Source: Clostridiales bacterium (GTDB lineage Bacteria > Bacillota > Clostridia > Oscillospirales > Oscillospiraceae). Taken from it: a stretch of DNA of 62,732 nt. Each line of letters opens with the position of its first letter. The stretch's first letter is position 1. Shown here in pieces: positions 7,161 to 62,556 of the stretch. The notes under the pieces were generated by a model, which was given only the letters and a program-made list of their open reading frames with translations, did not search any database and had not been told where the DNA came from. The position numbers and the translations under genes are program-made. Location: contig JALFVN010000050.1 in the NCBI GenBank assembly GCA_022787565.1, forward strand, positions 1-62,732. Direction: 5' to 3'.

Positions 7161-7634
7161 ATGTCGGCAAAGCAGAAGGGCGTGAAGGAGATCACCGCGA
7201 ACCGCAAGGCCTTCCACGAATACTTTGTGCTGGAGCGCTTCGAGGCCGGCATTGAGCTTGCCGGGACGGAGGTCAAATCCATCCGGGGCGGCAACGTGAA
7301 TTTAAAGGACGCGTTCTGCACCATCAAAAACGGCGAGCTTTTTATCCGGGGTATGCACGTCAGTCCCTATGAGCATGGCAACATCTTTAACAAGGATCCG
7401 GTCAGGCCCCGGCGTCTGCTGATGCACAAGCGGGAGATTTTAAAGCTCAACGCCCGCGTCATGCAGGATGGCGTGGCCCTCATCCCCCTGTCCCTGTACT
7501 TCAAGGACAGCCGGGTGAAGGTGGAGCTGGGCCTGTGCAAGGGCAAAAAGCTCCACGACAAACGGGACAGCGAGGCTGACCGCCAGTCCAAGCGGGACAT
7601 AGACAGAATGATGAAGGAGAGAAATTACCAATGA
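7161..7634 (+). CDS. smpB: SsrA-binding protein SmpB
   Basis: 157-residue SmpB, the partner of tmRNA in rescue of stalled ribosomes. It shows [20 protein letters not shown], then [19 protein letters not shown] and the [13 protein letters not shown] region, and it ends in a basic tail that folds as a helix in the ribosome. The ATG at 7161 follows GGAAGTGAGCAG with a good ribosome site; the open frame starts 14 codons earlier without one. The cyclophilin gene begins 4 bases before the smpB stop, and ssrA itself is 780 bases downstream, so both components of trans-translation are linked. Confidence 0.97.
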
Positions 7635-8410: not shown

Positions 8411-8757
8411 GGGATGCACTGGTTTCGACGGGGGTGTGGAGGCAGGAATAGCGGGCGGATGCGCCTACCATCCTTAAAATGGGCACTTTATAAATTAAAG
8501 AACAACGACAATACTGTTCTTCTCGCTGCTTAATCAGTGAGCGTCTCGCCCGGGAGGACCACGGCCCGGGACGGGGCGTCGATCAGTGGTGAACATGCGT
8601 GCGCTAAGCTTTGCGCGCACCATGCATAATGAAGCTACCAAGTCCCCGAGCATGACGGCTTGCGCCGGGATGAGGGAATGTAAATAACCGTCTGCGCCCG
8701 GAGAAGTTCCTGTCAAAGCGCTTTCGGACGGGGGTTCGATTCCCCCCATCTCCACCA
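8410..8757 (+). ncRNA. ssrA: tmRNA (transfer-messenger RNA)
   Basis: 348-nt tmRNA. The 5' end GGGGATGCACTGGTTTCGAC is the standard tmRNA opening, and GGTTCGATTCCCCCCATC followed by TCCACCA is the tRNA-like 3' end with encoded CCA. The acceptor arms 8410-8416 and 8747-8753 pair over 7 bases. The tag frame ends at the stop 8531-8533 and encodes a degradation tag whose last ten residues are NNDNTVLLAA (8501-8530), ending in the proteolysis signal LAA-like Leu-Ala-Ala. The resume codon lies just upstream and was not fixed. Pseudoknot-forming GC blocks follow. A strong terminator comes directly after the CCA. Confidence 0.97.
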
Positions 8758-8786: not shown

Positions 8787-8965
8787 CAACGAAATCCGTC
8801 CTCACGGACGGATTAAATCCCACCTCAGTGGGATGAAATCACTTCGTGATGAAATCCGACTGCGTCGGGAGATAGGGACGGATTTAATTTCATCTGCAAA
8901 GCAGATTTCATCTGAGCATCGCTCGGATTTCATCGCGCTTGCGCGATTTCATTGAAAATCATTGA
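8787..8965. repeat. Array of short hairpins separated by ATTTCAT spacers (family R3), copy 1
   Basis: About nine small perfect palindromes, each different (for example CCGTCCTCACGGACGG, CACTTCGTG, CTGCAAAGCAG, GAGCATCGCTC, CGCGCTTGCGCG), are joined by the same short spacer GAAATC/GATTTCAT. The spacing is constant while stems vary, as in a set of compensating hairpins. Nothing codes here. Similar arrays are at 9530-9692 and 41962-42055. Confidence 0.8.
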
Positions 8966-9013
8966 AATCTGTGATATAATGTATAAAGTGAGGTATGAGC
9001 GGAGAATTATGTC

Positions 9014-9439
9014 GTGAACTTTACAGACATTAACGTAGAGGCACAAGCAAAAGTCCTTGAACTGCTAAATGAGCATATCGCTACAAGTGTCGATATTATC
9101 AAGGCAGATCATATTTTATTGCCGATGCTAATAATATTTGATTCAAGGCAGTTATTCAGCTTGCAACCCAAAAATGATGAAACAGATGTTGATAAAGCAT
9201 ATGCATTTGTTGTTGATAAGCTAAAAAAGGAATCTTTCTCCTATGCGTTGTTTTCTTACAGTACTCAAATAGAACTTGAAAACAGTAAAATTTCTAATGC
9301 AATAAAGACGTATATATTTACAGCACAAGGAATCGAAGTTTCTTTTTATACTCCATATTCCTTAAAAGGACTCCTAAGGAAATCCATTAATGTCGAAAAA
9401 ACGATCTTCGGGGGAATAAAAGAACATGTATTTGATTGA
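9014..9439 (+). CDS. AT-rich orphan protein between two hairpin arrays
   Basis: 141-residue protein from a GTG start; I do not recognise it. It begins NFTDINVEAQAKVLELLNE and has no signal peptide or long hydrophobic helix. Alternating short strands (LPMLIIFDSR, SYALFSYST, TYIFTAQGIEVSFYTPYS) suggest an alpha/beta fold. The ribosome site is weak (GCGGAGAATTATGTC). Base composition is clearly more AT-rich than the GC-rich neighbours, and the gene is enclosed by two copies of a terminator plus hairpin array, so it was probably acquired. The function is unknown; a small cargo gene of a mobile element is one possibility. Confidence 0.7.
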   Translation: MNFTDINVEAQAKVLELLNEHIATSVDIIKADHILLPMLIIFDSRQLFSLQPKNDETDVDKAYAFVVDKLKKESFSYALFSYSTQIELENSKISNAIKTYIFTAQGIEVSFYTPYSLKGLLRKSINVEKTIFGGIKEHVFD

Positions 9440-9501
9440 ATTTACACTATTTTTAAGCTTTCTTACCCATATTTACGCTACTTTTGGTCAGTCTTTCGCA
9501 G

Positions 9502-9529
9502 AAAAAGGCACCCGTGAGGGTGCTTTTTT
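9502..9529 (+). terminator. Second copy of the ssrA-type terminator
   Basis: AAAAAGGCACCC, GTGA, GGGTGCTTTTTT: same stem and loop as the ssrA terminator at 8759-8786, followed by the same CAACGAAATCCGTCC. It lies 60 bases after the orphan gene and would end its transcript. Confidence 0.8.
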
Positions 9530-9692
9530 CAACGAAATCCGTCCTTCGGGCGGAATAAATCCATCTTCGACGGATGAAATCACTCCGTGATGAAGTCCGC
9601 CTTACGGCGGGAGATAAGGACGGATTTCATTTCATCCACAAAGTGGATTTCATCGGCGTCAGCCGATTTCATCCTTGCGCAGCAAGGATTTC
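9530..9692. repeat. Hairpin array (family R3), copy 2
   Basis: Another run of short palindromes (CGTCCTTCGGGCGG, CACTCCGTG, CCGCCTTACGGCGG, GGCGTCAGCC, CCTTGCGCAGCAAGG) joined by GATTTCATC/GATGAAATC. The first 35 or so bases, including the terminator, are almost the same as copy 1; later stems differ in sequence but not in pairing. It overlaps the upstream part of an open frame whose real start is at 9739. Confidence 0.8.
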
Positions 9693-9738
9693 ATTTGTCC
9701 AAAAACCGCCGTACGTCAAATCACCGGAGAGCGATAAA

Positions 9739-10290
9739 ATGACAGAACAAGTGGAGATCATCCGTTCCAAAAGAAAAACCGTGACCATTCAGATCAAAAG
9801 CGACGGGCGCGTGGTCGTCCGGGCGCCTGTGCGCATGCCCGGGGCGGCCATCCGGCAGCTGCTGGAAGAAAAATCGGCCTGGATCGAAAAGCATCTGGCC
9901 CAGATCCGCCGGCAGAATGAAAGCGCGGAGCCGGCCTTCTCCCCGGAGCAGCTCCGGCAGCTGGCCGAGGCGGCACGGCAGGATCTCCCCCGCCGCGCAG
10001 CCCGCTTTGCCCCGCTGGTGGGCGTGTCCTGCGGGCGCATCACCATCCGGGCCCAGAAGAGCCGCTGGGGCTCCTGCTCCACCAGGGGCAACCTGAATTT
10101 CAACTGCCTGCTGATGCTCTGCCCCGAAGAGGTGCGGGACTATGTTGTGGTCCATGAGCTTTGCCACCGGAAGGAAATGAACCACTCCCGGCGCTTCTGG
10201 CTGGAGCTTGCCCGGGTGCTGCCCGAATACGAACAGCAGCGCAAATGGCTGAAAGCCAACGGAAGCCGCCTCATCCGCCGCTTGCCCTGA
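9739..10290 (+). CDS. YgjP/SprT-like M48-type metallopeptidase
   Basis: 183-residue protein of the YgjP-like metallopeptidase family (DUF45). The zinc site is HELCHRKEMNHSRRFW, i.e. HEXXH with a downstream His. The RITIRAQKSRWGSCSTRGNL block upstream is also diagnostic. The N terminus EQVEIIRSKRKTVTIQIKSD is a short beta-rich domain. The ATG at 9739 follows GGAGAGCGATAAA; upstream sequence in the same frame is hairpin-array DNA. The substrate is unknown; family members are thought to be cytosolic proteases. It stands alone on the plus strand. Confidence 0.88.
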   Translation: MTEQVEIIRSKRKTVTIQIKSDGRVVVRAPVRMPGAAIRQLLEEKSAWIEKHLAQIRRQNESAEPAFSPEQLRQLAEAARQDLPRRAARFAPLVGVSCGRITIRAQKSRWGSCSTRGNLNFNCLLMLCPEEVRDYVVVHELCHRKEMNHSRRFWLELARVLPEYEQQRKWLKANGSRLIRRLP

Positions 10291-34940: not shown

Positions 34941-35239
34941 TCAACTGTCATTCTGAGAATTTCGGGATGCTTGCAGGGGCGACCCTTGCGGCCGCCCGCT
35001 ATTTCCGGCTTCCTCCCTCGTCCAACACGGGCCGTCGAGGACGCCGGCCCCTACACAGAAGAGCGCAGCGGAAGCCAGGAAAAAGGCTCCCCTGTGTAAG
35101 GGGAGCTGTCAGCCGCAGGCTGACTGAAGGGTTGCCGCCGCACCAATGGTTTTCACCATTGTCCAATCAACGCTTCCGGCGTCTGGAATACGGCTCCGTT
35201 CTTCTGTTTCACACCGGCGCACCCCAAACCCCATCCGTA

Positions 35240-50248: not shown

Positions 50249-51703
50249 TCAATTCTCGTAATCTTCCGGCAACTGGATCACTTCGTCCCGGTGCATGGCC
50301 TTCAGCATTTCGATGCCGGCGGCCACATCCTCCTCGTCGGGCCACATGACATAAAGCCGCATGGGCTTGCCGTCCATCAGCATGGTGGTGAAGGGAACCC
50401 GGCTGTCGCCGGTACCGCTTACGCTGTAGCGCAGAATTTCCCACTGGGGGTTGGAGGCCAGCTGTTCCCTGACCAGTCCGGCTATCAGCTCATAGGGCAC
50501 GGTGGTCTGGAAGCTTCCCTCGGTGGCGTCCAGCAAATTGTCGAAGCCGACAAGAATGGACCGGGACAGCAGTTTGTTGATGGCCGCCTGGATGATGCGC
50601 ACCTGGTTTCTGCCCCGCCACTGGTCTCCGGCGCTCCGGTTCCGGGCGTGTTTCAGGGCCTCCTCGCCGTTGAGGTGCATGACGCCGGGATAGCCCTCCA
50701 GCTCTGCGTCGATACCGCCGATGGCGTCGATGATCTTCTCGAACCCGGTGAAATTCACCCGGAAATAGTAGTCGATCTGCGTGTCGTACAGCATCTCCAG
50801 CGCGCCCTTGCTCACGTCGATGCCATAGATCCCGGCGTGGGTCAGCTTATCCCGTTCCCCGTTGGAGATGGGCAGTGGCACATAGTAGTCCCGGGGGGTG
50901 GTGATCATCAAAATCTGATGGGTCAGGGTGTTCACACTGACGATGATGTTCACATCGCTGCGGCTTTTTACGGACACGTCGCCGAAGGTGTCAATGCCGC
51001 TGATGTACACGGAGAAACAGTGATCCTCCGTCTCCTCCCCGGTCTCCGGTCCGGGGAGATTCTGGGGCGCGGGCTCCGCCTGGATGCGAAGCTCCGTAAT
51101 GATCCGCACCCACTCGTCCAGATCTTCATAGGCGCCCAGTTCCCCCGCAATGGCCAGCAGCTCGGGGTTTACAATCATGCTTCGGATTTCTCCTGCCAGC
51201 AGGGCGTCCAGCAGTGCGCCAACGCCGTCATACTCCCGGGTCCGGACGGTCAGGCCCAGCCCTTCATTGATCTGGCTGAGGGCCTCCTCCGTATCGCTGA
51301 GGATCCCGGTGGGGAGAACGCCGAAAAGATCGCCGGACAGGTCCTGGATGCTCTGGGCATCATCCTCTGTCCGGACATAGACGCAGGCCCGGCTGAATTC
51401 CGGGGCGGTCCGGGTCATGCTTTGCAGTGTGTTCACGGTTCTGTTCAGCACGACCGTGCCGAAGCAAAGCCCCGGGATAAAAAACAGCGCCAGCACAAGG
51501 CCGGCGATCAGCCGCCCCTTTTTCTCCGGCCGGGCGCAGAGGAAGATCAGCAGCCCGTCCGCAAGGAAAAGCCCCGCAAAGAGCAGCGCTGTCCACAGTC
51601 CGGGCAGCAGTCCCGCCCGCAGCACCGCGGCGCAGAACAGCCCCGTCACCGTCAGAAGCAGGACGATAAAGACAGCAGGAATGAATTTTAGGATTTTTTT
51701 CAT
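50249..51703 (-). CDS. LytR-CpsA-Psr (LCP) family protein
   Basis: 484-residue membrane protein with three N-terminal helices (FIPAVFIVLLLTVTGLFCAA, LWTALLFAGLFLADGLLIFL, LIAGLVLALFFIPGLCFG), an ~100-residue domain and a C-terminal LCP domain (RSDVNIIVSVNTLTHQILMI, TTPRDYYVPLP, KLTHAGIYG, RNRSAGDQWRGRNQVRIIQA). LCP proteins attach teichoic acids, capsule or glycans to peptidoglycan. Its stop is ten bases before the dehydrogenase start. The ATG at 51703 lies behind GGAAAGGCG. Possibly part of the envelope-glycan set with the capsule genes at 57.9-62.6 kb. Confidence 0.9.
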   Translation of the reverse strand: MKKILKFIPAVFIVLLLTVTGLFCAAVLRAGLLPGLWTALLFAGLFLADGLLIFLCARPEKKGRLIAGLVLALFFIPGLCFGTVVLNRTVNTLQSMTRTAPEFSRACVYVRTEDDAQSIQDLSGDLFGVLPTGILSDTEEALSQINEGLGLTVRTREYDGVGALLDALLAGEIRSMIVNPELLAIAGELGAYEDLDEWVRIITELRIQAEPAPQNLPGPETGEETEDHCFSVYISGIDTFGDVSVKSRSDVNIIVSVNTLTHQILMITTPRDYYVPLPISNGERDKLTHAGIYGIDVSKGALEMLYDTQIDYYFRVNFTGFEKIIDAIGGIDAELEGYPGVMHLNGEEALKHARNRSAGDQWRGRNQVRIIQAAINKLLSRSILVGFDNLLDATEGSFQTTVPYELIAGLVREQLASNPQWEILRYSVSGTGDSRVPFTTMLMDGKPMRLYVMWPDEEDVAAGIEMLKAMHRDEVIQLPEDYEN

Positions 51704-51853: not shown

Positions 51854-53641
51854 TCAGAAATCCATGGACATGCGGCTGGATTCCTCTTCGCTCAGCTCGG
51901 TCACCTTGGTGTCCACCACCCGGTACACCCGCTGGCACAGATTCAGCACGCTGGGGCGGTGGGTGGTGACGATACAGGTCTTGTTGGGCTTCTGGGTCAC
52001 GATATTCCGCAGCACCCGGCGCTCGGTGGTCACGTCCAGAGCGGAGGTGGCCTCATCCAGCAGCAGCACCGGCGCGTCCCGCAGAACGGCCCGGGCGATG
52101 GCGATGCGCTGTGCCTGCCCCTCGGACAATCCCCGGCCCCGCTCGCCCAGTCTGGCGTTGATGGTGTCGGGCATTTTTTCTACAAAATCCCAGGCGCAGG
52201 CGATCTTCAGGGCCTGAATGATCTCCTCGTCGGAGGCGTCCTCCTTCACCGTGCGCAGGTTTTCCGCGATGGTGCCGGAGAGGATGGTGTTTCCCTGGGG
52301 CACATAGGCGAAGAGATGCCTTGTCTCCGCGTTCATGGTCACTTCCCTGCCGTCGGAGCCGCGGATAAGAGCCCGGCCCTCCTGGGGGCAGACCAGACCC
52401 AGGATCAGGCGGATCATGGTGGTTTTTCCCTCGCCGGAGGGGCCGACAAGGGCCACGATCTCCCCGGGCTTTGCCGTAAAGGCGGAATCGGTAATGACCT
52501 GCTTTCCCTCCACATAGGCAAAGTCCACATCCTGCATCTGCACGGTGAAGCCGTCCTCCGCCAGCTTGTCCAGCTCGCTGCTCTCGGGGATATGTACCTC
52601 CCGGGGCAGCTCCACCAGCTCCCGGATACGGTGGGCGGAGACGGAGCTGTTGAGAAAGGCGGGGATAATGGAGATCAGGCTGCTGAAGGCCCCGGAGAGG
52701 TTGCTCCGCTGCTGCAGAAACAAGGTCATGGTGCCGTAGGTGATGGAGTGGGTCCACAGCCGGAACAGGCAGTAGCCAAAGGCGGCAAACTGCACGCCCA
52801 TGCCGATCACGGACATGAGGATATTGGATTTGATGGAAAACAGATTGTAATCCAGGCTCACGTCCTTGAATTTACTCTGCCACCAGCGGAGTTTTTTGCT
52901 GTAATAGGGCGCGATGCCGAAGGATTTGATGGTGTCGAAGTTATAGAAGGTCTCCACCTCGAAGCTCATGAGCTGGCTGCTCATTTCCTTCACCTTTTTG
53001 CTGTACTGCCGCTGTTTTTTGATAAGGAACTTGGAGATCAGCAGCATGAAGGGGGCGCTGCCCAGGGCGATCAGCGCCATGACCCAGTCGTAATGGAGGA
53101 TGACCAGGAAGGTGGCGGCGAAGCGGTAGACGGCGATAATGATGCTGGGCAGCCAGCTGATGGCGTTGCCGCTGACGGTAGAGATGTCGCTGTTGAAGCG
53201 GTTGAGCACGTCGCCGTTGCTGTATTGGGTCAGGGAGAGCCAGTCAGCGTCCACGATCTTGTCGAAAATGTCCGCCTGGATGTCGTTGTTGATAAAGATG
53301 CTCAGCCTTGTGGTGATCCGGCTGAGCACGCTGTCCAGCGCCAGACTGGCCACGGAGCTGCCCACCATGATAATGATGAGGATGGCCAGCTTGCTGGTCT
53401 GGTAGCCGGTGATGATATCGATCAGATATTTTCCGGCCACACTGCTCACCAGCCCCATGGTGGTGCTGAATATGCCCAGAAACACATAAAAAACGATGGC
53501 AAATTTATACCGGGCGCTGTAGGTGAAGATCCACTTCCAGTCGTCGATGATCTCTTGAAAGGTGCCGTCCTTCCAGCGGGCGATCAGCGTCTCCAGAGAG
53601 GCGAAGGTCGCCGTGTCCTGTTTGTTTTTGTTTTCGTCCAT
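51854..53641 (-). CDS. ABC transporter, fused membrane and ATPase domains
   Basis: 595-residue half-transporter: ~45 cytoplasmic residues, six helices to ~residue 330, then an ATPase domain. Walker A is VALVGPSGEGKTTMIRLILG, signature GRGLSEGQAQRIAIARAVLR, Walker B VLLLDEATSALD, and switch His in TCIVTTHRPSVLNL. There is no N-terminal C39 peptidase domain. It works as a homodimer, likely an exporter. It follows the HPrK-like gene by 69 bases on the same strand, so it is probably the exporter of the peptide-modification locus (inference); leader removal would need another protease. Confidence 0.9.
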   Translation of the reverse strand: MDENKNKQDTATFASLETLIARWKDGTFQEIIDDWKWIFTYSARYKFAIVFYVFLGIFSTTMGLVSSVAGKYLIDIITGYQTSKLAILIIIMVGSSVASLALDSVLSRITTRLSIFINNDIQADIFDKIVDADWLSLTQYSNGDVLNRFNSDISTVSGNAISWLPSIIIAVYRFAATFLVILHYDWVMALIALGSAPFMLLISKFLIKKQRQYSKKVKEMSSQLMSFEVETFYNFDTIKSFGIAPYYSKKLRWWQSKFKDVSLDYNLFSIKSNILMSVIGMGVQFAAFGYCLFRLWTHSITYGTMTLFLQQRSNLSGAFSSLISIIPAFLNSSVSAHRIRELVELPREVHIPESSELDKLAEDGFTVQMQDVDFAYVEGKQVITDSAFTAKPGEIVALVGPSGEGKTTMIRLILGLVCPQEGRALIRGSDGREVTMNAETRHLFAYVPQGNTILSGTIAENLRTVKEDASDEEIIQALKIACAWDFVEKMPDTINARLGERGRGLSEGQAQRIAIARAVLRDAPVLLLDEATSALDVTTERRVLRNIVTQKPNKTCIVTTHRPSVLNLCQRVYRVVDTKVTELSEEESSRMSMDF

Positions 53642-53710
53642 TGCGGCCCCTCCTTTTACCCTTGGATTATAACACCGGTTCAGGCTTTTGCATAGTGCTT
53701 CCGGCGGCGT

Positions 53711-54556
53711 TCAGCCGGGATAAAGCCCCTTTTCCAGACAGCGCACCGCGTTTTCCGAGATGGTGCAGCGCAGGTGGAACACGGGCACCCGGGCGACCAG
53801 GTTTTCAATCAGGGCCATGTTTTTTTCGGCAAAGTCCCGGTTCCATGTGTTCACGGTGATCTGGCTGTAGAGCTGGGTAAAGGCCTCTCGGGGGGAGAGC
53901 CGTCTCAGCTTGTCCTCCTGCCCCTGGCTCAGCATCACCACGGCCCGGATGGGGGTGGACAGGTTTTCGCAGATGGCCGAGCTGCCGCAGACCGGCCAGC
54001 CCCGGGCCGTCCAGCGGCCATTGACGCACTGGAGCAGGGCCTTGTCGCCGTTAATGCTCCGGCTGCCCCGGTATTTTTCCCAGAGAGTCGCCTGGGTGCT
54101 CTTGCCGGTCTCCGAGGGGGCGGAAAAGAGGATGGCCTCCCCCTGATGGCGGATGTAGGCGCAGTGGAGGATCAGCGCGTCCCTTCGCACCATCCTCCGC
54201 TCCAGGGCCAGCAGGGAGCTAAACATCACGTCAAAGCGCATGTTCTGTATTTCCCGGCGAAGCAGGACGGCCTCCGCGCTGCGCTCTGTGATCTCCCGAT
54301 AACAGGCGTAAAAGTCCCCGCCCTTCACGCCGATGACCCGGCTCTCCAAGCCATGGTTGGAAAACACCCGGATATCCGGCCTTTGGGCAATAAGCTCTCC
54401 CTCCGGCTCCGGCAGCCGGTCAGAAAGCAAAATGCGGTAGCTGTACTCCGGCTCACCCGCCGCAGTACGAAACAGCATGAAATTATCCGGCGGCGTCAGT
54501 TCCTCCGGCCAGCGCAGCCGGAAGCAGAAATCGCCGATCAGAAACAGTCCGTCCAT
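53711..54556 (-). CDS. HPr-kinase-like protein of the peptide-modification locus
   Basis: 281-residue soluble protein. A P-loop lies at residues ~150-160 (AILFSAPSETGKSTQATLWE) in the HPr serine kinase-type context, with the following SINGDKALLQCVNGRWTARG resembling the metal and substrate region of HPrK-related proteins. The N-terminal ~130 residues are an own domain without a named family. Such HPrK-like proteins occur in SynChlorMet-type cassettes and as tailoring kinases of some lasso peptides. I chose the ATG at 54556 behind AAAGGAC. It may phosphorylate the precursor or bind it (inference). Confidence 0.78.
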   Translation of the reverse strand: MDGLFLIGDFCFRLRWPEELTPPDNFMLFRTAAGEPEYSYRILLSDRLPEPEGELIAQRPDIRVFSNHGLESRVIGVKGGDFYACYREITERSAEAVLLRREIQNMRFDVMFSSLLALERRMVRRDALILHCAYIRHQGEAILFSAPSETGKSTQATLWEKYRGSRSINGDKALLQCVNGRWTARGWPVCGSSAICENLSTPIRAVVMLSQGQEDKLRRLSPREAFTQLYSQITVNTWNRDFAEKNMALIENLVARVPVFHLRCTISENAVRCLEKGLYPG

Positions 54557-54729
54557 TGCTTGTCCTTTCTGATTGTAAAAATATCCCCTGTGCCGGACAT
54601 GCGTCACACACGAATCGCCCGCTTCTTCCGGCTTCCGACCTCATCCCACATGGGCCGTCGGGGACGCCGGCCCCTACAAGGCGCGGTCCGAAACAGGTCC
54701 GTAGAGGCGGCCCCTACGGGCAATCTTCA

Positions 54730-55836
54730 TTATTCATCTTCTGTCTGCTCTTCCCGCAGCAGGCGGTACAGCTCCTCTGCGTTTCGGCAGAGGTATTCCG
54801 GCAGGCCATCATCTTCCCCGGTCTCCAGCCGGGCGGCGGCGGGGCAGACCTTGCACAACGGGCGCAGGCGGCAGAGGCCGCACTTTTCGTTCATCCGCAG
54901 GCCCTTCGCCTTTTCCCGGATCTCCTGCCAGGCCGCCTCAAAGCCCCGTTCAAACACCGGGGCCGAGGGTGCGGACAGGCTGACGCAGGGACGCAGTTCT
55001 CCCTGCCAGTTTACCGTAAAGGAGCAGTTTCCTGCAAGGCAAAAAATTCCAGTTCCCCGATTTTTTTCCGTATTATCCGTTTCCTGCAGCATCCGGGCGG
55101 CATATTCCCGCAGTCCCTCCGACCCGAGCTCTGCCCGCAGGGTCTCCAGCTCCGCCCGGGCCGCCTCCTCCGGGTCCAGGCGGGTCTGCCTGTCCAGCGG
55201 AAGTCCCCGTTCGCGGAGGCCGGGGAGCATGTAGCAGTCCGTATGGACCGGCGCGTCCAGTTCCCGGCCGATCCGGTAGATCTCCGCCAGCTCCTGCCGG
55301 TTGGGTTTTACAGCGCTGCTGTTGAGCTTTACGTCCACGCCCCGCGCCTTCAGCAGGCGCACGGCTTGCACGGTCTTTTCAAAGCCGCCCGGGCAGCGGC
55401 ACAGCCTTTCGTAGGTCTGCTCCGTGCTGCCGTACAGCGTGATGTTCACCCGCCGGGGCTTATGAGCGGCGAAAAAGTCTGCCCAGTCCCCGTCGATCAG
55501 GGTGCCGTTGGTGTTCACCGTCAGGACAAAGCCCATTTTTTTCAGGGCGGTATACAGCTGCCGGAAGCCGGGGAAAAGCAGCGGCTCCCCGCCGGTGAGC
55601 AGCAAAAACAGCACCCCCGCCCGGGACATCTCCTCTGCCAGAGCGATGTACTCCTCCGCCGTGTGCAGGCGGCCCTTCCGCTCCATCTCCTCCCTGCTCA
55701 GACGGACGTAGCACATGCCGCAATCCATGGTACACAGGGGTGTCAGCTCCAGGCTGCCGTTGATGGGCCGCCCCAGAGCCGCCGCCCGTACCATCATCTG
55801 TTTTTCCAGTGTTGTGGCGTCCCGCGTTCCATCCAC
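54730..55836 (-). CDS. Radical SAM/SPASM peptide-modifying enzyme
   Basis: 368-residue enzyme. The radical SAM cluster motif is CTMDCGMCY (CX3CX2C) at residues ~35-43, followed by LLLTGGEPLLFPGFRQLYTA and VLTVNTNGTLIDG. The C terminus has a SPASM-type Cys-rich region: CLAGNC near residue 270 and CGLCRLRPLCKVCPAAARLE. I chose a GTG at 55836 because GAGGAGG lies 6-7 bases upstream; the open frame continues upstream through the precursor gene. Its neighbours (PqqD-like protein, two leader-bearing proteins) strongly suggest it modifies them. The chemistry (crosslink, epimerisation, other) cannot be read. Confidence 0.9.
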   Translation of the reverse strand: MDGTRDATTLEKQMMVRAAALGRPINGSLELTPLCTMDCGMCYVRLSREEMERKGRLHTAEEYIALAEEMSRAGVLFLLLTGGEPLLFPGFRQLYTALKKMGFVLTVNTNGTLIDGDWADFFAAHKPRRVNITLYGSTEQTYERLCRCPGGFEKTVQAVRLLKARGVDVKLNSSAVKPNRQELAEIYRIGRELDAPVHTDCYMLPGLRERGLPLDRQTRLDPEEAARAELETLRAELGSEGLREYAARMLQETDNTEKNRGTGIFCLAGNCSFTVNWQGELRPCVSLSAPSAPVFERGFEAAWQEIREKAKGLRMNEKCGLCRLRPLCKVCPAAARLETGEDDGLPEYLCRNAEELYRLLREEQTEDE

Positions 55837-55857
55837 CGGCTTTTCCTCCTCTCTGAT

Positions 55858-55889
55858 AAAAAAGAACCGGATTGCTCCGGTTCTTTTTT
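55858..55889 (-). terminator. Terminator between precursor A and the radical SAM gene
   Basis: GAACCGG and CCGGTTC pair around a 6-base loop with A and T runs on either side. It is 20-50 bases past the precursor A stop and just before the radical SAM ribosome site, so most transcripts may stop after the precursor. Confidence 0.75.
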
Positions 55890-55909
55890 TGTTATCTGTT
55901 TTTTCTGCA

Positions 55910-56344
55910 TCAGGAGCGGTTGGGGTGGCCGGGGACCGTGTCAAATACCGTTCCCACATGGTGCCATGTTTTTTTATTCCAGCCATTTCCTGCGCTGGTT
56001 GTCCAATAAATCGTATCGCCCGCCTTGACAGAGCCGATGCTTTTCTGGGTAGTATAGCTGGCATCCGTGTATATTGTGCAGAACAGTGTGCCCAGACCGT
56101 CTGTGCCAACCTCAACCATTCTGTCGGCAACGCCGTCGTCATTATCGTCAAAGATGACCTGATTGCCGGACAGGCCGCAGTGATCTGCGCCATGATACAG
56201 GTTGTTAGGATCGTAATTCCCCATTGACTGCTCAATGCTGTTTGCGTCATTTACACTGCATCCCACGCCCCAGCAGGCAGCGATGTACTCGTTGGCTTCA
56301 AACTGCTGCACCATGATCGCAGGATGCTCCCATGTCTTTTTCAT
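55910..56344 (-). CDS. Leader-bearing precursor-like protein A
   Basis: 144-residue protein. The first 24 residues, MKKTWEHPAIMVQQFEANEY followed by IAAC, align without gaps with protein B (MKKAFTMPKIVVEQFVPNEY, then VSAC): 13 of 24 positions are identical, ending in Cys24. The remaining ~120 residues hold Cys29, Cys56 and Cys89 and are rich in Gly, Asp and Asn, including FDDNDDGVADRMVEVGTDG. It is separated by a terminator from the radical SAM gene and has its own promoter. I infer a ribosomally made peptide precursor with an unusually long core, or a modified secreted protein. Confidence 0.75.
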   Translation of the reverse strand: MKKTWEHPAIMVQQFEANEYIAACWGVGCSVNDANSIEQSMGNYDPNNLYHGADHCGLSGNQVIFDDNDDGVADRMVEVGTDGLGTLFCTIYTDASYTTQKSIGSVKAGDTIYWTTSAGNGWNKKTWHHVGTVFDTVPGHPNRS

Positions 56345-56421
56345 TTTTTAATCCACCCCTTTATCGAAAAACGAAATTCTTATTGTGAATGGGACTGGCC
56401 CATGTTTTTTATACAATATGT

Positions 56422-56460
56422 ATTATAAATCAAAAATCCACAATTTGTCAATCGGTTTCC
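56422..56460 (-). promoter_or_regulatory. Promoter of precursor A with a shared upstream element
   Basis: Minus strand: TTGACA (56451-56446), 18 bases, TATAAT (56427-56422). GGAAACC lies 2 bases upstream of the -35 box (56460-56454). The same element is present at the promoters of precursor B and of the PqqD gene. Confidence 0.75.
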
Positions 56461-56526
56461 ATGACGCATGATGTAAAAAAATAACATCTGACAGGCGGAG
56501 ATTATTTGGCGAAAAAGCGCATGAAA

Positions 56527-56838
56527 TCAGCTGTTTCCTTCTTCCAGAAGCAGCCGGTAGCGCAGACCGTCTCTGATAAAGCTCCGCACCGCCAGGGTCA
56601 GCTCCTCCTCCGTGGCATCAAACTCCGCAAGGCACAGGGTCACAACGTTTTCCAGGGTGTTAGGCTCGGCAAACGCTTTCCAGATAAAGGCTGCGGATTC
56701 ATTGGGCGTCATGACCGCGTTGGCGATCAGGCACTCCTCTCCCACCGGAATAATGGCATATTCGCCGCAGATCTCCCGCAGAACATAGTCGGGATTTATC
56801 CGGTACAGCGGGGCGGCAGCTTGTTTATTATCGTTCAT
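56527..56838 (-). CDS. PqqD-like peptide chaperone (RRE domain)
   Basis: 103-residue protein with the PqqD / RiPP-recognition-element fold: YRINPDYVLREICGEYAIIP, then ANAVMTPNESAAFIWKAFAE and TLENVVTLCLAEFDATEEEL. Such proteins bind the leader of a precursor peptide and bring it to the radical SAM enzyme. It lies between the two precursor-like genes, the best support for this locus making a modified peptide. The ATG at 56838 follows TTTGGAGG. It has its own promoter at 56889-56927. Confidence 0.87.
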   Translation of the reverse strand: MNDNKQAAAPLYRINPDYVLREICGEYAIIPVGEECLIANAVMTPNESAAFIWKAFAEPNTLENVVTLCLAEFDATEEELTLAVRSFIRDGLRYRLLLEEGNS

Positions 56839-56888
56839 TGGAGACCTCCAAATTACAGAAATTGGCTTGCGTTATATACTCAGCGTAT

Positions 56889-56927
56889 AGTATATATCAA
56901 CTGCCTGTTTTTTGTCAAATGTTTTCC
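56889..56927 (-). promoter_or_regulatory. Promoter of the PqqD-like gene with the shared element
   Basis: Minus strand: TTGACA (56918-56913), 18 bases, TATACT (56894-56889), with GGAAAAC at 56927-56921, 2 bases upstream of the -35 box as at the two precursor promoters. Confidence 0.7.
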
Positions 56928-56937
56928 TCTCCCCTTC

Positions 56938-57050
56938 TTCCGGCTTCCGACCGCGTCCAACTCGGGCCGTCGGGGACGCCGGCCCCTACACGGCGCAGCC
57001 CGCAACCCATTCGTAGGGGCGATTCACCAATCGCCCCTTCGCGAAGCCTT
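56938..57050. repeat. R2 dispersed repeat, full copy
   Basis: CTTCCGGCTTCCGACC, then GGGCCGTCGGGGACGCCGGC with CCCTAC, followed by CGTAGGGGCGATTCACCAAT with CGCCCC. The same two-part order occurs near 34976-35265 and 54605-54720. Confidence 0.75.
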
Positions 57051-57062
57051 GCCGGAAGACAG

Positions 57063-57090
57063 AAAAACCCGGAGCCTATGGCTCCGGGTC
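57063..57090 (-). terminator. Terminator of precursor B
   Basis: ACCCGGAGCC, loop TAT, GGCTCCGGGT; on the minus strand the stem is followed by TTTTTCT. It is ~30 bases past the precursor B stop. Confidence 0.85.
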
Positions 57091-57118
57091 GATTGGTTGG
57101 CTTGTTTTTGCATTGATT

Positions 57119-57508
57119 TCAGGACTTGGCGGTTTCCCAGGTTTCCATGTTCAGCTGGGTGGTGCAGTGAACATTGTCTCCGTTGGGTCCTTTCCAGATG
57201 ATCACTTCCTGCACGGTGTCAGAACCGCCGAAAGGAACGACAACGTAACCACGAACGAAAGCATCCGTTGTTTTCGCCTCGTGAGTTTCCCCGCAGTAGT
57301 GGTAAGTAATAGCCAGCGGAGTATCCGGATTCACTGAACCCAGGCGCTGCAAACCCTCCCGGCCGTTGGTCTCCTGATACACACCGCTACCGCCGGCTGC
57401 ATCACATGTAAACTTATAAACCTTATTCTCATCGCCGCAGGCGGAAACATATTCGTTGGGTACGAACTGCTCAACGACGATTTTGGGCATAGTAAATGCC
57501 TTTTTCAT
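57119..57508 (-). CDS. Leader-bearing precursor-like protein B
   Basis: 129-residue protein that shares the 24-residue leader of protein A (MKKAFTMPKIVVEQFVPNEY, then VSAC). The core has Cys35, Cys72 and Cys115 and no resemblance to the core of A that I can see; it looks like a folded beta-rich domain (PLAITYHYCGETHEAKTTDA, VVVPFGGSDTVQEVIIWKG). The ATG at 57508 lies behind a GGGGGAAG ribosome site and has its own promoter with the shared GGAAACC element. A strong terminator follows. Probably the second substrate of the radical SAM enzyme. Confidence 0.75.
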   Translation of the reverse strand: MKKAFTMPKIVVEQFVPNEYVSACGDENKVYKFTCDAAGGSGVYQETNGREGLQRLGSVNPDTPLAITYHYCGETHEAKTTDAFVRGYVVVPFGGSDTVQEVIIWKGPNGDNVHCTTQLNMETWETAKS

Positions 57509-57654: not shown

Positions 57655-57691
57655 ATTATACCACAGAAAAAGCAATTGTCAATTGGTTTCC
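57655..57691 (-). promoter_or_regulatory. Promoter of precursor B with the shared element
   Basis: Minus strand: TTGACA (57682-57677), 16 bases, TATAAT (57660-57655), with GGAAACC at 57691-57685, 2 bases upstream of the -35 box. The stretch ATGGAAACCAATTGACAA is nearly the same at precursor A. Confidence 0.75.
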
Positions 57692-57928: not shown

Positions 57929-58666
57929 ATGGTCGATATTCACTGCCACATACTGCCCGACTGCGACGACGGAGCGGATTCCATGGATACCGCGCTGCTC
58001 ATGGCCCGCATGGCGGCAGACAGCGGCGTGACCGCGATCATTGCCACGCCCCACAGCAACCTGCCCCGGGCAAAGGAAAAGAATTTCCGGGACGCGCCGC
58101 TGGCTCTGCGCTTTGTGGAGCTGATGCGGCAGGTCCGGGACGCGGGCATCCCCCTGGAGATTCAGCCCGGTGCGGAGGTCATGTGTATGCCGGACACTGT
58201 GGAGCTGCTGCGCAGGCGGCAGCTGGTGACTCTGGCCCGCTCCAACTATCTGCTGCTGGAATTTTTCTTTGACGAGCAGCCCGATTATATGGATGCCATG
58301 CTGGACGCCATTGCGGCGGAGGGGGTCCACCCTGTTGTGGCCCACCCCGAGCGCTATGAGGCGGTGCAGCAGGCCCCGGGGATCGTTGCCCGGTGGTTTG
58401 AAAAGGGCTATATCATCCAGTTGAACAAGGGCAGCATCCTGGGCCGTCTGGGCCGGGGCGCGGAGCGAACCGCCGGGCTGATCCTGTCCCGCGGTCTTGC
58501 CCATCTTGTGGCTACCGACGCCCACGACACCCTTGTGCGCACCCCCGGCGTCGGCTCTCTCCGGCAGCTGCTGGAGGAGCGCTTCGGCCCTGACTATACA
58601 CGGGTGCTGATGGAGCTGAATCCGGAGCGCATCTGCCGGAATCAGCCCGTCATCCGGGCCGACTGA
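57929..58666 (+). CDS. cpsB: CpsB/YwqE-type tyrosine phosphatase (PHP domain)
   Basis: 245-residue metal-dependent phosphotyrosine phosphatase of the PHP fold. Metal ligand motifs are VDIHCHILPDCDDGADS, IATPHSN, QPGAEVM, VAHPERY and VATDAHD. It reverses autophosphorylation of BY-kinases and so controls capsule/exopolysaccharide chain length; two such kinases follow on the same strand. Length is typical. It opens the capsule-control cluster, with its own promoter just upstream. Confidence 0.93.
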   Translation: MVDIHCHILPDCDDGADSMDTALLMARMAADSGVTAIIATPHSNLPRAKEKNFRDAPLALRFVELMRQVRDAGIPLEIQPGAEVMCMPDTVELLRRRQLVTLARSNYLLLEFFFDEQPDYMDAMLDAIAAEGVHPVVAHPERYEAVQQAPGIVARWFEKGYIIQLNKGSILGRLGRGAERTAGLILSRGLAHLVATDAHDTLVRTPGVGSLRQLLEERFGPDYTRVLMELNPERICRNQPVIRAD

Positions 58667-59624: not shown

Positions 59625-61055
59625 ATGAACGAACATTCTTCAAGCATCAAATGGGCCGAGATTGAGCCGCTGTGCGTCATCCGGATCGTTCTGCGCAAGC
59701 TCTGGCTGCCGGTGCTGGCTTTCCTCATCGGCTATATGTGCGTCTCCATCGTGCTGGGAAATCTGGTTTCCCGGTCCTACAGCTGCAGCGCCACCTTTTC
59801 CGTGGTCTCCAACTCCGGCAGCTATTACGGCGGCGGCAGCTCCACTGCCTCCGAGGTGGTCAATATCTATTCCCAGCTGCTTCAGGGCCGCTTTATGGAC
59901 GATCTGATCCTGGAGGATCTGGGCGGCAGCGTCAACGGCTCTCTCAGCGCAAAGCAGCTGGGCGACACCAACCTGATCAGCCTGACTGTCAGTTCCGATT
60001 CTCCCAGGGATGCCCTGCTGATCATGCAGTCCATCATGCGCAATTATCAGAATCTTTCGGACTATGTCTCCTCCTCCGTGGTGCTCAACCAGCTGAACAC
60101 CCCCAACGTTGCCATCACCGTCAACCGGGTGTACAATGTTCAGCATCTGGGGACAAAGGCCGGGCTGCTGCTGGCCGCCGCCATGATCTGTCTTATTGTC
60201 TGGCTGGATCTCTCCCGCGGCGCCGTACAGACCATGACAGGAGCAAAAAACCGGCTGGACGGAAAGATCATCGGCTCCATCCCCCACGAAAAGTCCGGGG
60301 GCCGCTTCTCCTTCCGGCGGAAAAAGCGCAGCGAGCTGCATATCTCCTCCGCCTCCGTCAGCTTCGCCTTTGCCGAGTCGGTTCACAGCATTGCCTCCCG
60401 GCTGGAGCATGAACAGAGCAAGGGGAAAAAGGTGTTCCTCTTCTCCAGCGTCACCGAGGGAGAGGGAAAATCCACCATAGCCGCCAACACCGCTCTGGCT
60501 CTGGCCGGAAACCGCAGCGCCGTGCTGTTTATCGATCTGGATCTGCGCCGTCCGGTGCAGGCCGGACTGCTTAACGCGAAAATTGGGAAAGGCCAGGCTT
60601 TCGGCGACCTGCTTCTCTCCGGCGCAAGCCCCCGGGAGATTCTGTCCTCCGCTATTGAAGATCCCGCCACGGGCATGGACATGCTGCTCAGCAGCCGCTC
60701 CTATACCGACACCATTGAGCTGCTCAGCTCTCCCCTGCTGGCCCAGGTCATTGCTCTGGCGCGGCAGCGCTATGATTTTGTCATTATCGACTCGCCCCCT
60801 CTGGGCTACTTTGCCGACAGTGAGGTGCTGGGCGACCTGTCCGACGCAACACTGCTGGTGATCCGCCAGAATATCGTCCCCGCGTCGGAAATCAACGACG
60901 CCATCGATTCCCTGCAGGCCTGCAAGGCCGTGTTTTTGGGCTGCATCCTCAACGACATGCAGCATCTCTCCCGCCATCTGCGCTACGGCTATAGCTACGG
61001 TTACGGCTATGGCTACGGCGGCAAGTACGGTTACGGACAGCGTTCCCGAAAATAG
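59625..61055 (+). CDS. Fused Wzz/BY-kinase 1 (polysaccharide biosynthesis tyrosine autokinase)
   Basis: 476-residue protein: Wzz-type chain-length domain with helices near residues 25-45 and 180-200 and a periplasmic-side domain between, then a cytoplasmic P-loop tyrosine kinase. Walker A is FSSVTEGEGKSTIAANTALA, A' LFIDLDLRRP and B FVIIDSPPLGYFADSE. The C-terminal end is a Tyr-Gly tail (YGYSYGYGYGYGGKYGYG), the autophosphorylation cluster. It controls capsule or exopolysaccharide length together with CpsB. The second kinase gene begins 19 bases downstream. Confidence 0.93.
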   Translation: MNEHSSSIKWAEIEPLCVIRIVLRKLWLPVLAFLIGYMCVSIVLGNLVSRSYSCSATFSVVSNSGSYYGGGSSTASEVVNIYSQLLQGRFMDDLILEDLGGSVNGSLSAKQLGDTNLISLTVSSDSPRDALLIMQSIMRNYQNLSDYVSSSVVLNQLNTPNVAITVNRVYNVQHLGTKAGLLLAAAMICLIVWLDLSRGAVQTMTGAKNRLDGKIIGSIPHEKSGGRFSFRRKKRSELHISSASVSFAFAESVHSIASRLEHEQSKGKKVFLFSSVTEGEGKSTIAANTALALAGNRSAVLFIDLDLRRPVQAGLLNAKIGKGQAFGDLLLSGASPREILSSAIEDPATGMDMLLSSRSYTDTIELLSSPLLAQVIALARQRYDFVIIDSPPLGYFADSEVLGDLSDATLLVIRQNIVPASEINDAIDSLQACKAVFLGCILNDMQHLSRHLRYGYSYGYGYGYGGKYGYGQRSRK

Positions 61056-61074
61056 TTCGGTTCTGAGGTCAATT

Positions 61075-62556
61075 ATGGAAGAAAAAGAAAAACAACAACA
61101 GGAAGAACAGAATTTAATCGACATTGGGGTGCTGTGGCACAATTTCCTGCCCATTCTGCGCCGCTTCTGGCTGCTGGTGCTGGTTTTCGCGCTGCTGTGC
61201 GGCGGGATGAAATATGTGCGTCTGCGGCGGAGCTTTACGCCTATGTACCGCACGGAGGCGATCTTTTCCGTCAGCGTGCCCACCTCGTCCAGGGTCGTCT
61301 CCGACCTGTATTCCAGCGGCTATTATTACGACAACGCCGCGGCAAAACAGGCCGTTGCCACCTTCCCCTATCTTCTCGGCTCTGATGTAATGCGGGACCT
61401 GCTGCTGCAGGAGCTGGGTACCTCCGGCATTAACGGCAGCATCAGCGCCTCCACCATCTCCGGCACCAACTTCATGGTCCTCACCGTCACCAGCGCCGAC
61501 CCCAATGATGCCTGCAGCATTGCCCAGGCCGTGATGGAGGTCTATCCCCAGATTGGCAAAAAGGTCATCGGAGATATTCAGCTTGTGGTGAGCCAGGAGC
61601 CTTCGGTTCCTGCCGCGCCCTACAACAGCTTTGTCTGGCACAGCAGCGTGATTAAAAGCGCCGCCATGGGGCTGGCCCTTGGTCTGGCCCTGCTGGTCCT
61701 GCTTGCTGCCATGCACCGCTCTGTGCTCAGCTCTGAGGATGTGAAGCGCCGGATTAATCTGCCCTGCCTTGCCCATATTCCCTCGGTCAGCGTCAAGGAG
61801 CGGAAAAAAAACAAATCCGCCGGTCTGCTGATCACCCGGCAGGACCCCTCCTCCGCCTTCTGCGAGTCCTTCCGCCTGCTGCGGCTGAAGCTGCTGCGCA
61901 ATCTGGATGAGGGAGACAAGGTCATCACCTTTACCAGCTCTGTCCCCTCCGAGGGCAAAAGCTCTCTTGCGGCCAACACTGCCCTGGCCCTGGCCAGAGA
62001 CGGCAAGCAGGTCCTGCTGATCGACGGAGACCTGCGCAGCCCCAGCATCAAGGGTCTGCTGGGTCTCAGTTCCCCCTCCGAGGGGCTGGGCGAATACCTG
62101 GCCGACCAGTCATCCAAGGAGGGCATCGACTGTCTTCGCTTCAAGGACACCAGCCTTGTGGTTCTGGCCGGAACCAAGGCCTATCCCAAGCCCGCCTCTC
62201 TGCTGCGCAGCAAGAAGCTGGCCTCCACCCTGGAGCGGGCCCGCGGGATCTTCGACTATATCATCATCGACACCCCGCCCTGCGTCATGGCTGACGCCTC
62301 TGTGTTCGCTGCCTTGTCCGATAAGGTGGTTTATGTGGTCCGCCGGGATTTTGCCCCCCGGTCCCAGGTGCTGGACAGCATCCGCGCTTTCAGCGACAGC
62401 GGTGCCAAGATTTGCGGCTTTGTGCTTAACTGCTCCAACCGCAGCGGCTCCGGCAAGGGCTACGGCTACGGTTACGGCTATGGTTACGGCTACGGCTACG
62501 GAAAGAAAACCGGTGCCTACGGCTACAGCAGCAAAAGCCGCTCAACTGAGGTGTGA
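61075..62556 (+). CDS. Fused Wzz/BY-kinase 2
   Basis: 493-residue paralogue of the previous protein. It has helices near residues 33-50 and ~195-215, Walker A FTSSVPSEGKSSLAANTALA, A' VLLIDGDLRSP and B IIIDTPPCVMADAS, and a C-terminal tail of GYGYGYGYGYGYGYG type plus more Tyr. The first ~20 residues are Glu/Gln-rich (EEKEKQQQEEQNL), unlike copy 1. I used the ATG at 61075; the longer frame overlaps the tail of kinase 1. Two intact kinases in a row may form hetero-oligomers or act on different polymers. Confidence 0.92.
   Translation: MEEKEKQQQEEQNLIDIGVLWHNFLPILRRFWLLVLVFALLCGGMKYVRLRRSFTPMYRTEAIFSVSVPTSSRVVSDLYSSGYYYDNAAAKQAVATFPYLLGSDVMRDLLLQELGTSGINGSISASTISGTNFMVLTVTSADPNDACSIAQAVMEVYPQIGKKVIGDIQLVVSQEPSVPAAPYNSFVWHSSVIKSAAMGLALGLALLVLLAAMHRSVLSSEDVKRRINLPCLAHIPSVSVKERKKNKSAGLLITRQDPSSAFCESFRLLRLKLLRNLDEGDKVITFTSSVPSEGKSSLAANTALALARDGKQVLLIDGDLRSPSIKGLLGLSSPSEGLGEYLADQSSKEGIDCLRFKDTSLVVLAGTKAYPKPASLLRSKKLASTLERARGIFDYIIIDTPPCVMADASVFAALSDKVVYVVRRDFAPRSQVLDSIRAFSDSGAKICGFVLNCSNRSGSGKGYGYGYGYGYGYGYGKKTGAYGYSSKSRSTEV

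Follow-up and report, generated by a model that had tools for sequence, protein, structure and literature searches.

What does a radical S-adenosylmethionine (SAM) enzyme of the SPASM type, together with the genes around it, do with two neighbouring proteins that share a short N terminus and have different cores? The question is raised by a cassette of six genes in the window, a stretch of 62,732 nt that is the whole of contig C24 in the 2.6-Mb genome of a Clostridiales bacterium (assembly GCA_022787565.1, contig JALFVN010000050.1). All six genes lie on the minus strand, from protein B, which starts at 57508, down to an ATP-binding cassette (ABC) exporter, which ends at 51854. A preliminary description of this stretch had listed a radical SAM/SPASM enzyme, a PqqD-like protein, an HPrK-like protein, an ABC half-transporter and two proteins of 144 and 129 amino acids (aa), and all of these are in place, with profile matches over cut-off to PF04055, PF05402, PF00664 and PF00005. 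As judged from sequence comparison, the cassette is real and recurs in other genomes, and it appears to modify large leader-bearing proteins, of roughly 140 aa, at their two ends. It is rather probable that in this system unusually large cores are matured at both ends in the manner of ribosomally synthesized and post-translationally modified peptides (RiPPs), often near exopolysaccharide loci.

A shared leader and a fixed last residue

Substrate A (144 aa, 55910..56344, minus strand) and substrate B (129 aa, 57119..57508, minus strand) are built in the same way, with a leader of residues 1-23, a cysteine at position 24 where the core begins (residues 24-144 in A and 24-129 in B), and a serine as last residue. 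The two leaders align without gaps, with 13 of 26 residues identical. The ungapped N terminus of 24 residues, which had been noticed before in the two single sequences, is found again when the profile of the A family (27 rows) is aligned with that of the B family (34 rows): the alignment covers residues 1-24 only, ends at Cys24 and has an E value of 8e-16. The cores alone give no profile alignment (probability 0.2%, E 0.27) and, as the profiles match over the leader only, a common origin of the two cores is unsupported. Matches to known families are equally scarce. Substrate B has none in Pfam or NCBIfam and no PDB relative better than E 0.7, the queries A, A3, A4 and the kinase have no PDB relatives at E 1, and 97 substrates taken together give one Pfam and one NCBIfam match, each with an E value of about 0.006 and regarded as chance. 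From this near-absence of family matches follows that the substrate genes are probably annotated as hypothetical.

The same leader is found elsewhere. The radical SAM protein, used as query against 61 genomes of the genus, found two paralogues in the source genome and one full second cassette in another species (genome G884), where two substrates with very different cores carry the same kind of leader. With three aligned enzymes as query, further loci were then fetched from a collection of 84,980 species, each represented by a single genome. Of the 110 relatives found, the best 80 were kept, equal to 74 distinct loci, so that more loci exist than were studied. Three loci with distant enzymes (L022, L023 and L024) and one on the same contig as L020 (L085) were left out of the counts. 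At a profile score of at least 10, the leader was present in 99 open reading frames (ORFs) in 68 of 78 sources, most of them directly upstream of a radical SAM gene; three rows that scored less than 10 were dropped, one of them a PqqD gene and two ending in serine. The fragments L035_8277 and L058_9501 are counted among the 99 and are absent from the 97-row alignment A5.

The sequence [WYF]xxP occurs in 98 of the 99 leaders, the exception having a cut start, and the pattern that seeded the leader profile required the proline, not the aromatic residue. Recognition sequences of the W/Y/LxxP type are reported for PqqD-like domains of several classes in the available part of PMC12710340. Three traits by which RiPP pathways are recognized seem in this way to be found together: a conserved leader with variable cores, a gene for a PqqD-type RiPP recognition element (RRE), and the aromatic-xxP sequence. 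A RiPP-pathway-like working thereby appears well supported and, on the strength of these sequences, a leader function and a modification by the radical SAM enzyme are very probable.

The residue immediately after the leader is cysteine in 96 of the 99 leader proteins, and in A and B a second cysteine follows shortly after. This is what would be expected if the modification were limited to the leader-proximal cysteine region, as in an ordinary radical SAM peptide with a short core, with the other 100 residues serving as a carrier that is cut later. Such a restriction is very improbable, however, when further conserved positions occur in distant parts of the core (C56, W114, W127 and G131 in A; C72, H76, W105 and H114 in B), and when the last residue is among the best conserved. 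A loose W-H pattern near the substrate end fits 87 of 97 substrates; it was devised post hoc and is not used as evidence.

The last residue is exactly serine in 95 of the 99 leader proteins, to be compared with 7.0% of the 963 ORFs of at least 150 aa in the same loci, a background that is a mechanical ORF set and not one of curated genes. The four exceptions are the two fragments (35 aa in L035_8277 and 86 aa in L058_9501), L062_4856 and L093_8647. When the cores are grouped by BLASTP at 1e-4, 12 groups are obtained, one of them a fragment and the two largest with 48 and 38 members; with the 86-aa fragment set aside, nine of the 11 non-fragment groups are wholly serine-ending. Groups with a common leader could be distant kin, so that the count of independent serine cases is an upper bound. 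All 34 aligned rows of the B family end in serine, and the 27 aligned A rows all end in Asn-Arg-Ser, an ending that was among the criteria by which those rows were selected. In a second set, assembled from the substrate side as described below, 13 new regions gave 15 substrates, of which 14 have serine as last residue, the exception being an overlong ORF in locus L140; these substrates sit on stretches separate from those of the first set, but may be partly redundant in sequence. In loci L027 (1000-1410) and L039 (14910-15299), which also hold radical SAM enzymes from a far part of the tree, weak-scoring leader-like proteins end in GNWS and PTWS, and terminal serine may therefore extend past the studied clade.

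Which enzyme serves which substrate

The radical SAM/SPASM enzyme of the window (368 aa with a GTG start, 54730..55836, minus strand) matches PF04055 with an E value of 6.4e-24 and carries the motif CTMDCGMCY, while its SPASM domain is a weak match (E 0.016, under cut-off). Among its relatives CxxxCxxC is kept in 67 of 67, and seven cysteines of the SPASM region in 65-67 of 67. Among the matches listed, every curated cut-off of the radical SAM models is missed. The enzyme was accordingly rejected as a maturase of pyrroloquinoline quinone (PQQ) or mycofactocin (PqqE 52 bits against a cut-off of 381, mycofactocin 66 against 265) and as a maturase of sactipeptides or ranthipeptides (StsB 60 against 625, AlbA 45 against 850, PapB 43 against 340). 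PqqE, the mycofactocin enzyme and the sactipeptide-type maturases are like the present case in that a SPASM radical SAM protein and a recognition domain go with a leader-bearing precursor, but the cores are here very large and diverse and have a fixed terminal serine.

Consider now the sister locus L025, in which B is followed by a radical SAM gene of its own and A by another. The window has no radical SAM gene of B's own. A lone radical SAM gene on contig C6 of the source genome shares 84% identity with the B enzyme of L025. The 11 best matches of this C6 gene are all B-associated, those of the window enzyme, also 11, all A-associated. In a tree of 97 radical SAM rows the core-type labels need 21 changes, to be compared with a mean of 50.4 for shuffled labels and with no shuffle out of 200 as low. 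In the same tree one group of 26 rows, with support 91, has no B rows and contains 23 of the 25 A-labelled enzymes; the C6 enzyme falls together with two B enzymes at a support of 100. When the labels A, B and D are considered alone, four changes are needed and two is the minimum possible. These numbers are to be read with labels that come from simple patterns, by which at least one D-looking core (L029_4377) is labelled A, and with a tree that has 37 weak branches among its 94 inner ones and two places where a pair of long branches joins.

From the best matches and the tree grouping follows that the window enzyme probably goes with A, and that the enzyme of B is probably the orphan on C6. The earlier proposal that one locus modifies two substrates is upheld as to a leader-guided system, with its 99 ORFs, the order PqqD-substrate-radical SAM and the [WYF]xxP sequence, but the window enzyme, which groups with A, is probably not for both. 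The matching of enzymes with core types points to the core as the part on which the enzyme acts, and the apparent division of labour between the A and B enzymes offers a natural test of core specificity.

A dispersed repeat, TAGGGGCCGGCGTCCCCGACGGCC, occurs in the window at 35030, 47973, 54653 and 56965 (four matches with at most three mismatches; none in shuffles). One copy lies in the gap that lacks B's enzyme, another separates the A enzyme from the kinase, and 50 nt upstream of the C6 enzyme there is a weaker relative, with 77% over 57 nt. These positions suggest a possible route by which the B enzyme would have moved.

The two substrates have promoter-like sites of their own, TTGACA-16-TATAAT for B (57655..57682, minus strand) and TTGACA-18-TATAAT for A (56422..56451, minus strand), both with 12 of 12 consensus positions; 11 promoter-like sites were found in the region and 2.8 are expected. 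A hairpin scan gave a terminator-like hairpin 3' of B (57066..57090, minus strand), and a terminator- or attenuator-like hairpin lies between A and the radical SAM gene (55858..55889, assigned to the minus strand; it is near-symmetric and the scan lists it on the plus strand). In relatives, a hairpin with a T-run is found in 49 of 57 gaps between substrate and enzyme and in 10 of 88 stretches within enzyme genes, the latter being a control of coding DNA with a composition not matched to that of the gaps. Consensus promoters on A and B, together with a hairpin between substrate and enzyme, fit a situation where the substrate is made in excess of the enzyme.

Gene order, neighbours and distribution

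Three further cassette genes belong to the proposed pathway. The PqqD-like protein (103 aa, 56527..56838, minus strand), the putative leader-binding RRE, matches PF05402 with 42 bits at a cut-off of 23.4. The HPrK-like P-loop protein (281 aa, 53711..54556, minus strand), a kinase-like protein, is matched by ScmC (1.3e-10) and HprK_rel_A (5e-5), both under cut-off, and has no match in a Pfam search. The ABC half-transporter (595 aa, 51854..53641, minus strand) matches PF00664 and PF00005 over cut-off, has no C39 peptidase among its Pfam matches, and has a copy with 71% identity in the G884 cassette.

A common order in the loci is PqqD, substrate and radical SAM, a unit that in some loci occurs again for a second substrate; after it come the kinase, ABC exporter, S26-like peptidase, CpsB, an Ig-like surface protein and two Wzz/Wze proteins. 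Thirty-one loci extend 8 kb or more to either side of the enzyme, via which they, like all the others, were retrieved. Of these 31, a substrate is present in 30, PqqD in 28, HPrK in 23, the ABC protein in 26, the S26-like peptidase in 21, the nucleotidyltransferase in 17 and CpsB/Wze in 19. For all 73 loci, many of which are cut short, the corresponding numbers are 64, 61, 53, 42, 34, 29 and 32. Substrate and enzyme genes form 66 tandem pairs with a median gap near 76 nt.

In the window, the cassette is flanked on one side by a LytR-CpsA-Psr protein (50249..51697, minus strand; PF03816, 1.1e-22) and on the other by a CpsB/CapC polysaccharide phosphatase (57929..58666, plus strand; PF19567, 1.1e-58), beyond which are two proteins of the Wzz/Wze type for polysaccharide chain length and tyrosine kinase function (59625..62556, plus strand), the first assigned by eps_fam (4.7e-28, under cut-off) and the second by similarity. 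These exopolysaccharide neighbours, the terminal serine, and the S26-like peptidase and PF14907-type nucleotidyltransferase on other contigs are additions to the preliminary description.

The substrate-side set consists of 20 regions that were chosen by eye from about 100 match rows in 43 cassette-bearing genomes. Six of them repeat earlier stretches, one is without a leader at threshold, and 13 are new. As a partial check on the proposed refutation, that homologues of A and B occur mostly without radical SAM/PqqD neighbours, the stretches fetched for the 13 new regions include a radical SAM gene in seven cases and none in six, all in genomes preselected for the enzyme. One of the six has PqqD and another is a 52-aa fragment. 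Four stretches (L139, L143, L144 and L149) hold serine-ending leader proteins and no radical SAM gene, and there the enzyme may act from elsewhere.

Could the leader be a secretion or sorting signal for the surface proteins of exopolysaccharide producers, with PqqD, radical SAM and kinase genes that are clustered in the same loci and whose products leave A and B untouched? The exopolysaccharide genes near 19 of 31 loci would agree with this, as would the six substrate-side regions that lack a nearby radical SAM gene. It is nevertheless quite improbable, given that the leader sequence is of the type bound by PqqD-type domains, as far as the available literature describes them, that substrate and enzyme genes are so often paired in tandem, and that the enzyme groups track the core types.

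Going by their record titles, the loci come mostly from gut Lachnospiraceae and other Clostridia, some from Erysipelotrichaceae/Thomasclavelia and one from a genome labelled Bacteroidales; the system extends beyond Clostridia. Culturable isolates such as Anaerostipes butyraticus, Merdimonas faecis and Sellimonas caecigallum are among the carriers. Protein A as a single query gave nothing convincing in 197 genomes of the order, 300 of the family and 391 of the class; seven matches outside the source genome, which lie in frames of 292-2275 aa and have E values from 3.5e-4 to 0.0098, were deemed chance. Nor did this query give a convincing match in phages, plasmids or viral contigs. The profiles of A and B had none in viral contigs, the B profile none in the other 390 class genomes, and neither a B-type protein nor the radical SAM protein (limit 1e-40) was matched in plasmids. 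From these searches follows that the cassette is sparse in the samples, with no sign of carriage by phages or plasmids. The source genome has a distant second cassette on contig C35 (L019, 7469-10817), with PqqD, an HPrK-like protein, a radical SAM enzyme (37%) and an 87-aa leader protein ending in serine; it adjoins another Wze pair.

The proposed pathway and its relation to known systems

In the proposed pathway, the PqqD-like protein would bind the N-terminal leader at [WYF]xxP and deliver the substrate to the enzyme, as the motif and the gene order suggest. A radical SAM/SPASM enzyme with specificity for one family of cores would then modify the core, most likely at conserved cysteines or aromatic residues, and the HPrK-like kinase would phosphorylate the terminal serine, by analogy with PadeK, ThcoK and PsmK. 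The PF14907 nucleotidyltransferase may thereafter attach a sugar or a nucleotide, by analogy with PsmN. Finally, the ABC exporter would move the product out, and the S26-like Ser-His peptidase would remove the leader, plausibly just before the near-invariant cysteine, which is the weakest step. In the source genome, the window enzyme would serve A and the C6 enzyme B, with a peptidase candidate on C35 and a nucleotidyltransferase candidate on C63.

The C-terminal steps are modelled on lasso peptides, where kinases phosphorylate the C-terminal serine of the precursor and have a described motif His-Lys-Asp-Asp, and where the nucleotidyltransferase PsmN adds a hexose at that serine (both in the available part of PMC9266682). 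In the kinase-like protein His148, Lys169 and Asp188 (numbering of a 298-aa open frame) are kept in 57 of 57, and His, GK.T and N-G-D in 56-57 of 57 relatives. A kinase homologue (E at most 1e-8) was found in 13 of 14 whole genomes whose fetched locus had none, the 14 having been picked by eye among the 20 of 73 loci without kinase. By this analogy, phosphorylation of the C-terminal serine by the kinase is quite likely. For sugar addition by the nucleotidyltransferase, also proposed by analogy, the chances are close to balanced, leaning slightly to the negative. This protein belongs to PF14907, two of its Asp residues are conserved in 27 of 27, and a search of the whole source genome gave one relative, on C63 and 52% identical. 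Cleavage of the leader at the cysteine by the S26-like peptidase is possible but somewhat doubtful. Here too the whole-genome search gave one relative, on C35 and 63% identical to the protein of locus L026, which in turn matches PF00717 over cut-off and an archaeal signal peptidase I model under cut-off. Ser32 and His71 are kept in 35 of 35 members of the peptidase family, an arrangement that we take to be that of the archaeal-type signal peptidases. In locus L020 (12468-13799), PF14907-like and S24/S26-like peptidase regions occur in one ORF, the peptidase match being under cut-off.

Several observations weigh against a two-ended pathway of this kind. With respect to the substrates, the full-length leader proteins of L062 and L093 and the overlong ORF of L140 lack the terminal serine, and no radical SAM gene lies within the stretch fetched for six of the 13 new substrate-side regions. 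With respect to the loci, these are not independent, several coming from one genome; the ABC count of 26 is loose, and 12 of the 31 well-flanked loci are without CpsB/Wze. The B-labelled enzymes lie in several groups of the tree (10 changes), and four of them adjoin the A group. The source-genome peptidase stretch is without a Pfam match at 0.01, and 16 of the 99 leaders have valine right before the cysteine, which is unfavourable for a cut of the signal-peptidase kind. Of the 13 kinase matches found elsewhere in genomes, two (G920 and G958) contain stop codons. In the kinase itself, Asp188 is preceded by Gly187 (56 of 57), so that one Asp of the described lasso motif may be missing; the description of that motif used here gives no spacing. 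Furthermore, the HPrK-like lasso kinase BsfK is described as phosphorylating Ser3, not the C terminus (available part of PMC10368454).

The last two points, together with the fact that the serine rule describes the substrates only, would also be accounted for by a leader-guided radical SAM system in which the terminal serine is a signal for export or stability and the kinase has another target, for instance the enzyme, PqqD or a sugar. An export signal can hardly explain, however, why the last residue is exactly serine in so many proteins with unalignable cores, and the co-occurrence of the kinase with a nucleotidyltransferase recalls the known tailoring pair for C-terminal serine, as far as that pair is described in the source. 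Another target for the kinase is therefore unlikely, and phosphorylation of the terminal serine is the preferred reading; the exactness of that serine makes the kinase step directly testable.

Lasso tailoring (PadeK, ThcoK and SyanK; PsmK/PsmN), as far as the available descriptions go, has in common with the present system a PqqD-like protein, a kinase for a serine-ending precursor, an ABC exporter, an aromatic-xxP leader and, in one case, a nucleotidyltransferase partner; PsmN and PadeK are likened by description only. The differences are the radical SAM enzyme, the cores of about 100-120 aa and N-G-D in place of the described His-Lys-Asp-Asp. The lasso B2 protease (PF13471) is over cut-off in none of 22 genomes, with three weak partial matches, and in two of 14 control genomes. 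The lack of such a protease over cut-off in the 22 genomes makes it improbable that these parts come from a lasso pathway. The SynChlorMet cassette also unites HPrK-like, PqqD-like and radical SAM/SPASM proteins, and its models are among the best matches, but their scores are far under the cut-offs (ScmC 41 against 125 bits, ScmD 19 against 100, ScmE 69 against 400, ScmF 58 against 400). HprK-related kinase A (TIGR04352), a family linked to exopolysaccharide loci, is HPrK-related like the protein here but gives 22.5 bits at a cut-off of 200. In the open-licence PMC papers that the searches reached, no description of this gene combination was found; searches aimed at it gave work on lasso peptides and on an electron-carrier precursor, which we take to be that of mycofactocin.

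If the preferred reading of maturation at both ends is true, leader-guided radical SAM chemistry is extended from short peptides to cores of more than 100 residues. It is then also joined to phosphorylation of a C-terminal serine, otherwise seen described, in the parts of the literature available, only for lasso peptides, and both modifications are placed near the exopolysaccharide genes of gut bacteria. A further speculation, distinctly unlikely as it stands, is that the matured proteins are carriers which are linked via the C-terminal serine phosphate to a sugar and thereby to exopolysaccharide, acting as a radical-SAM-modified starter or anchor of the glycan, with cores that in some strains are exchangeable by DNA inversion.

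Two loci have inverted repeats at their substrate genes. In L020, two substrate genes face each other, and inverted repeats of 148 nt (89%) at 7377-7524 and 8595-8742 extend over the 5' region and the leader codons; the repeats adjoin a tyrosine recombinase (8831-9769; PF00589, 4e-23), which makes this a candidate invertible core switch. In L076 there are four substrate genes, not all in one orientation, and their 5' regions carry inverted repeats of 47-50 nt (98%), in the pairs 2012-2058/3127-3173 and 4517-4566/6629-6678.

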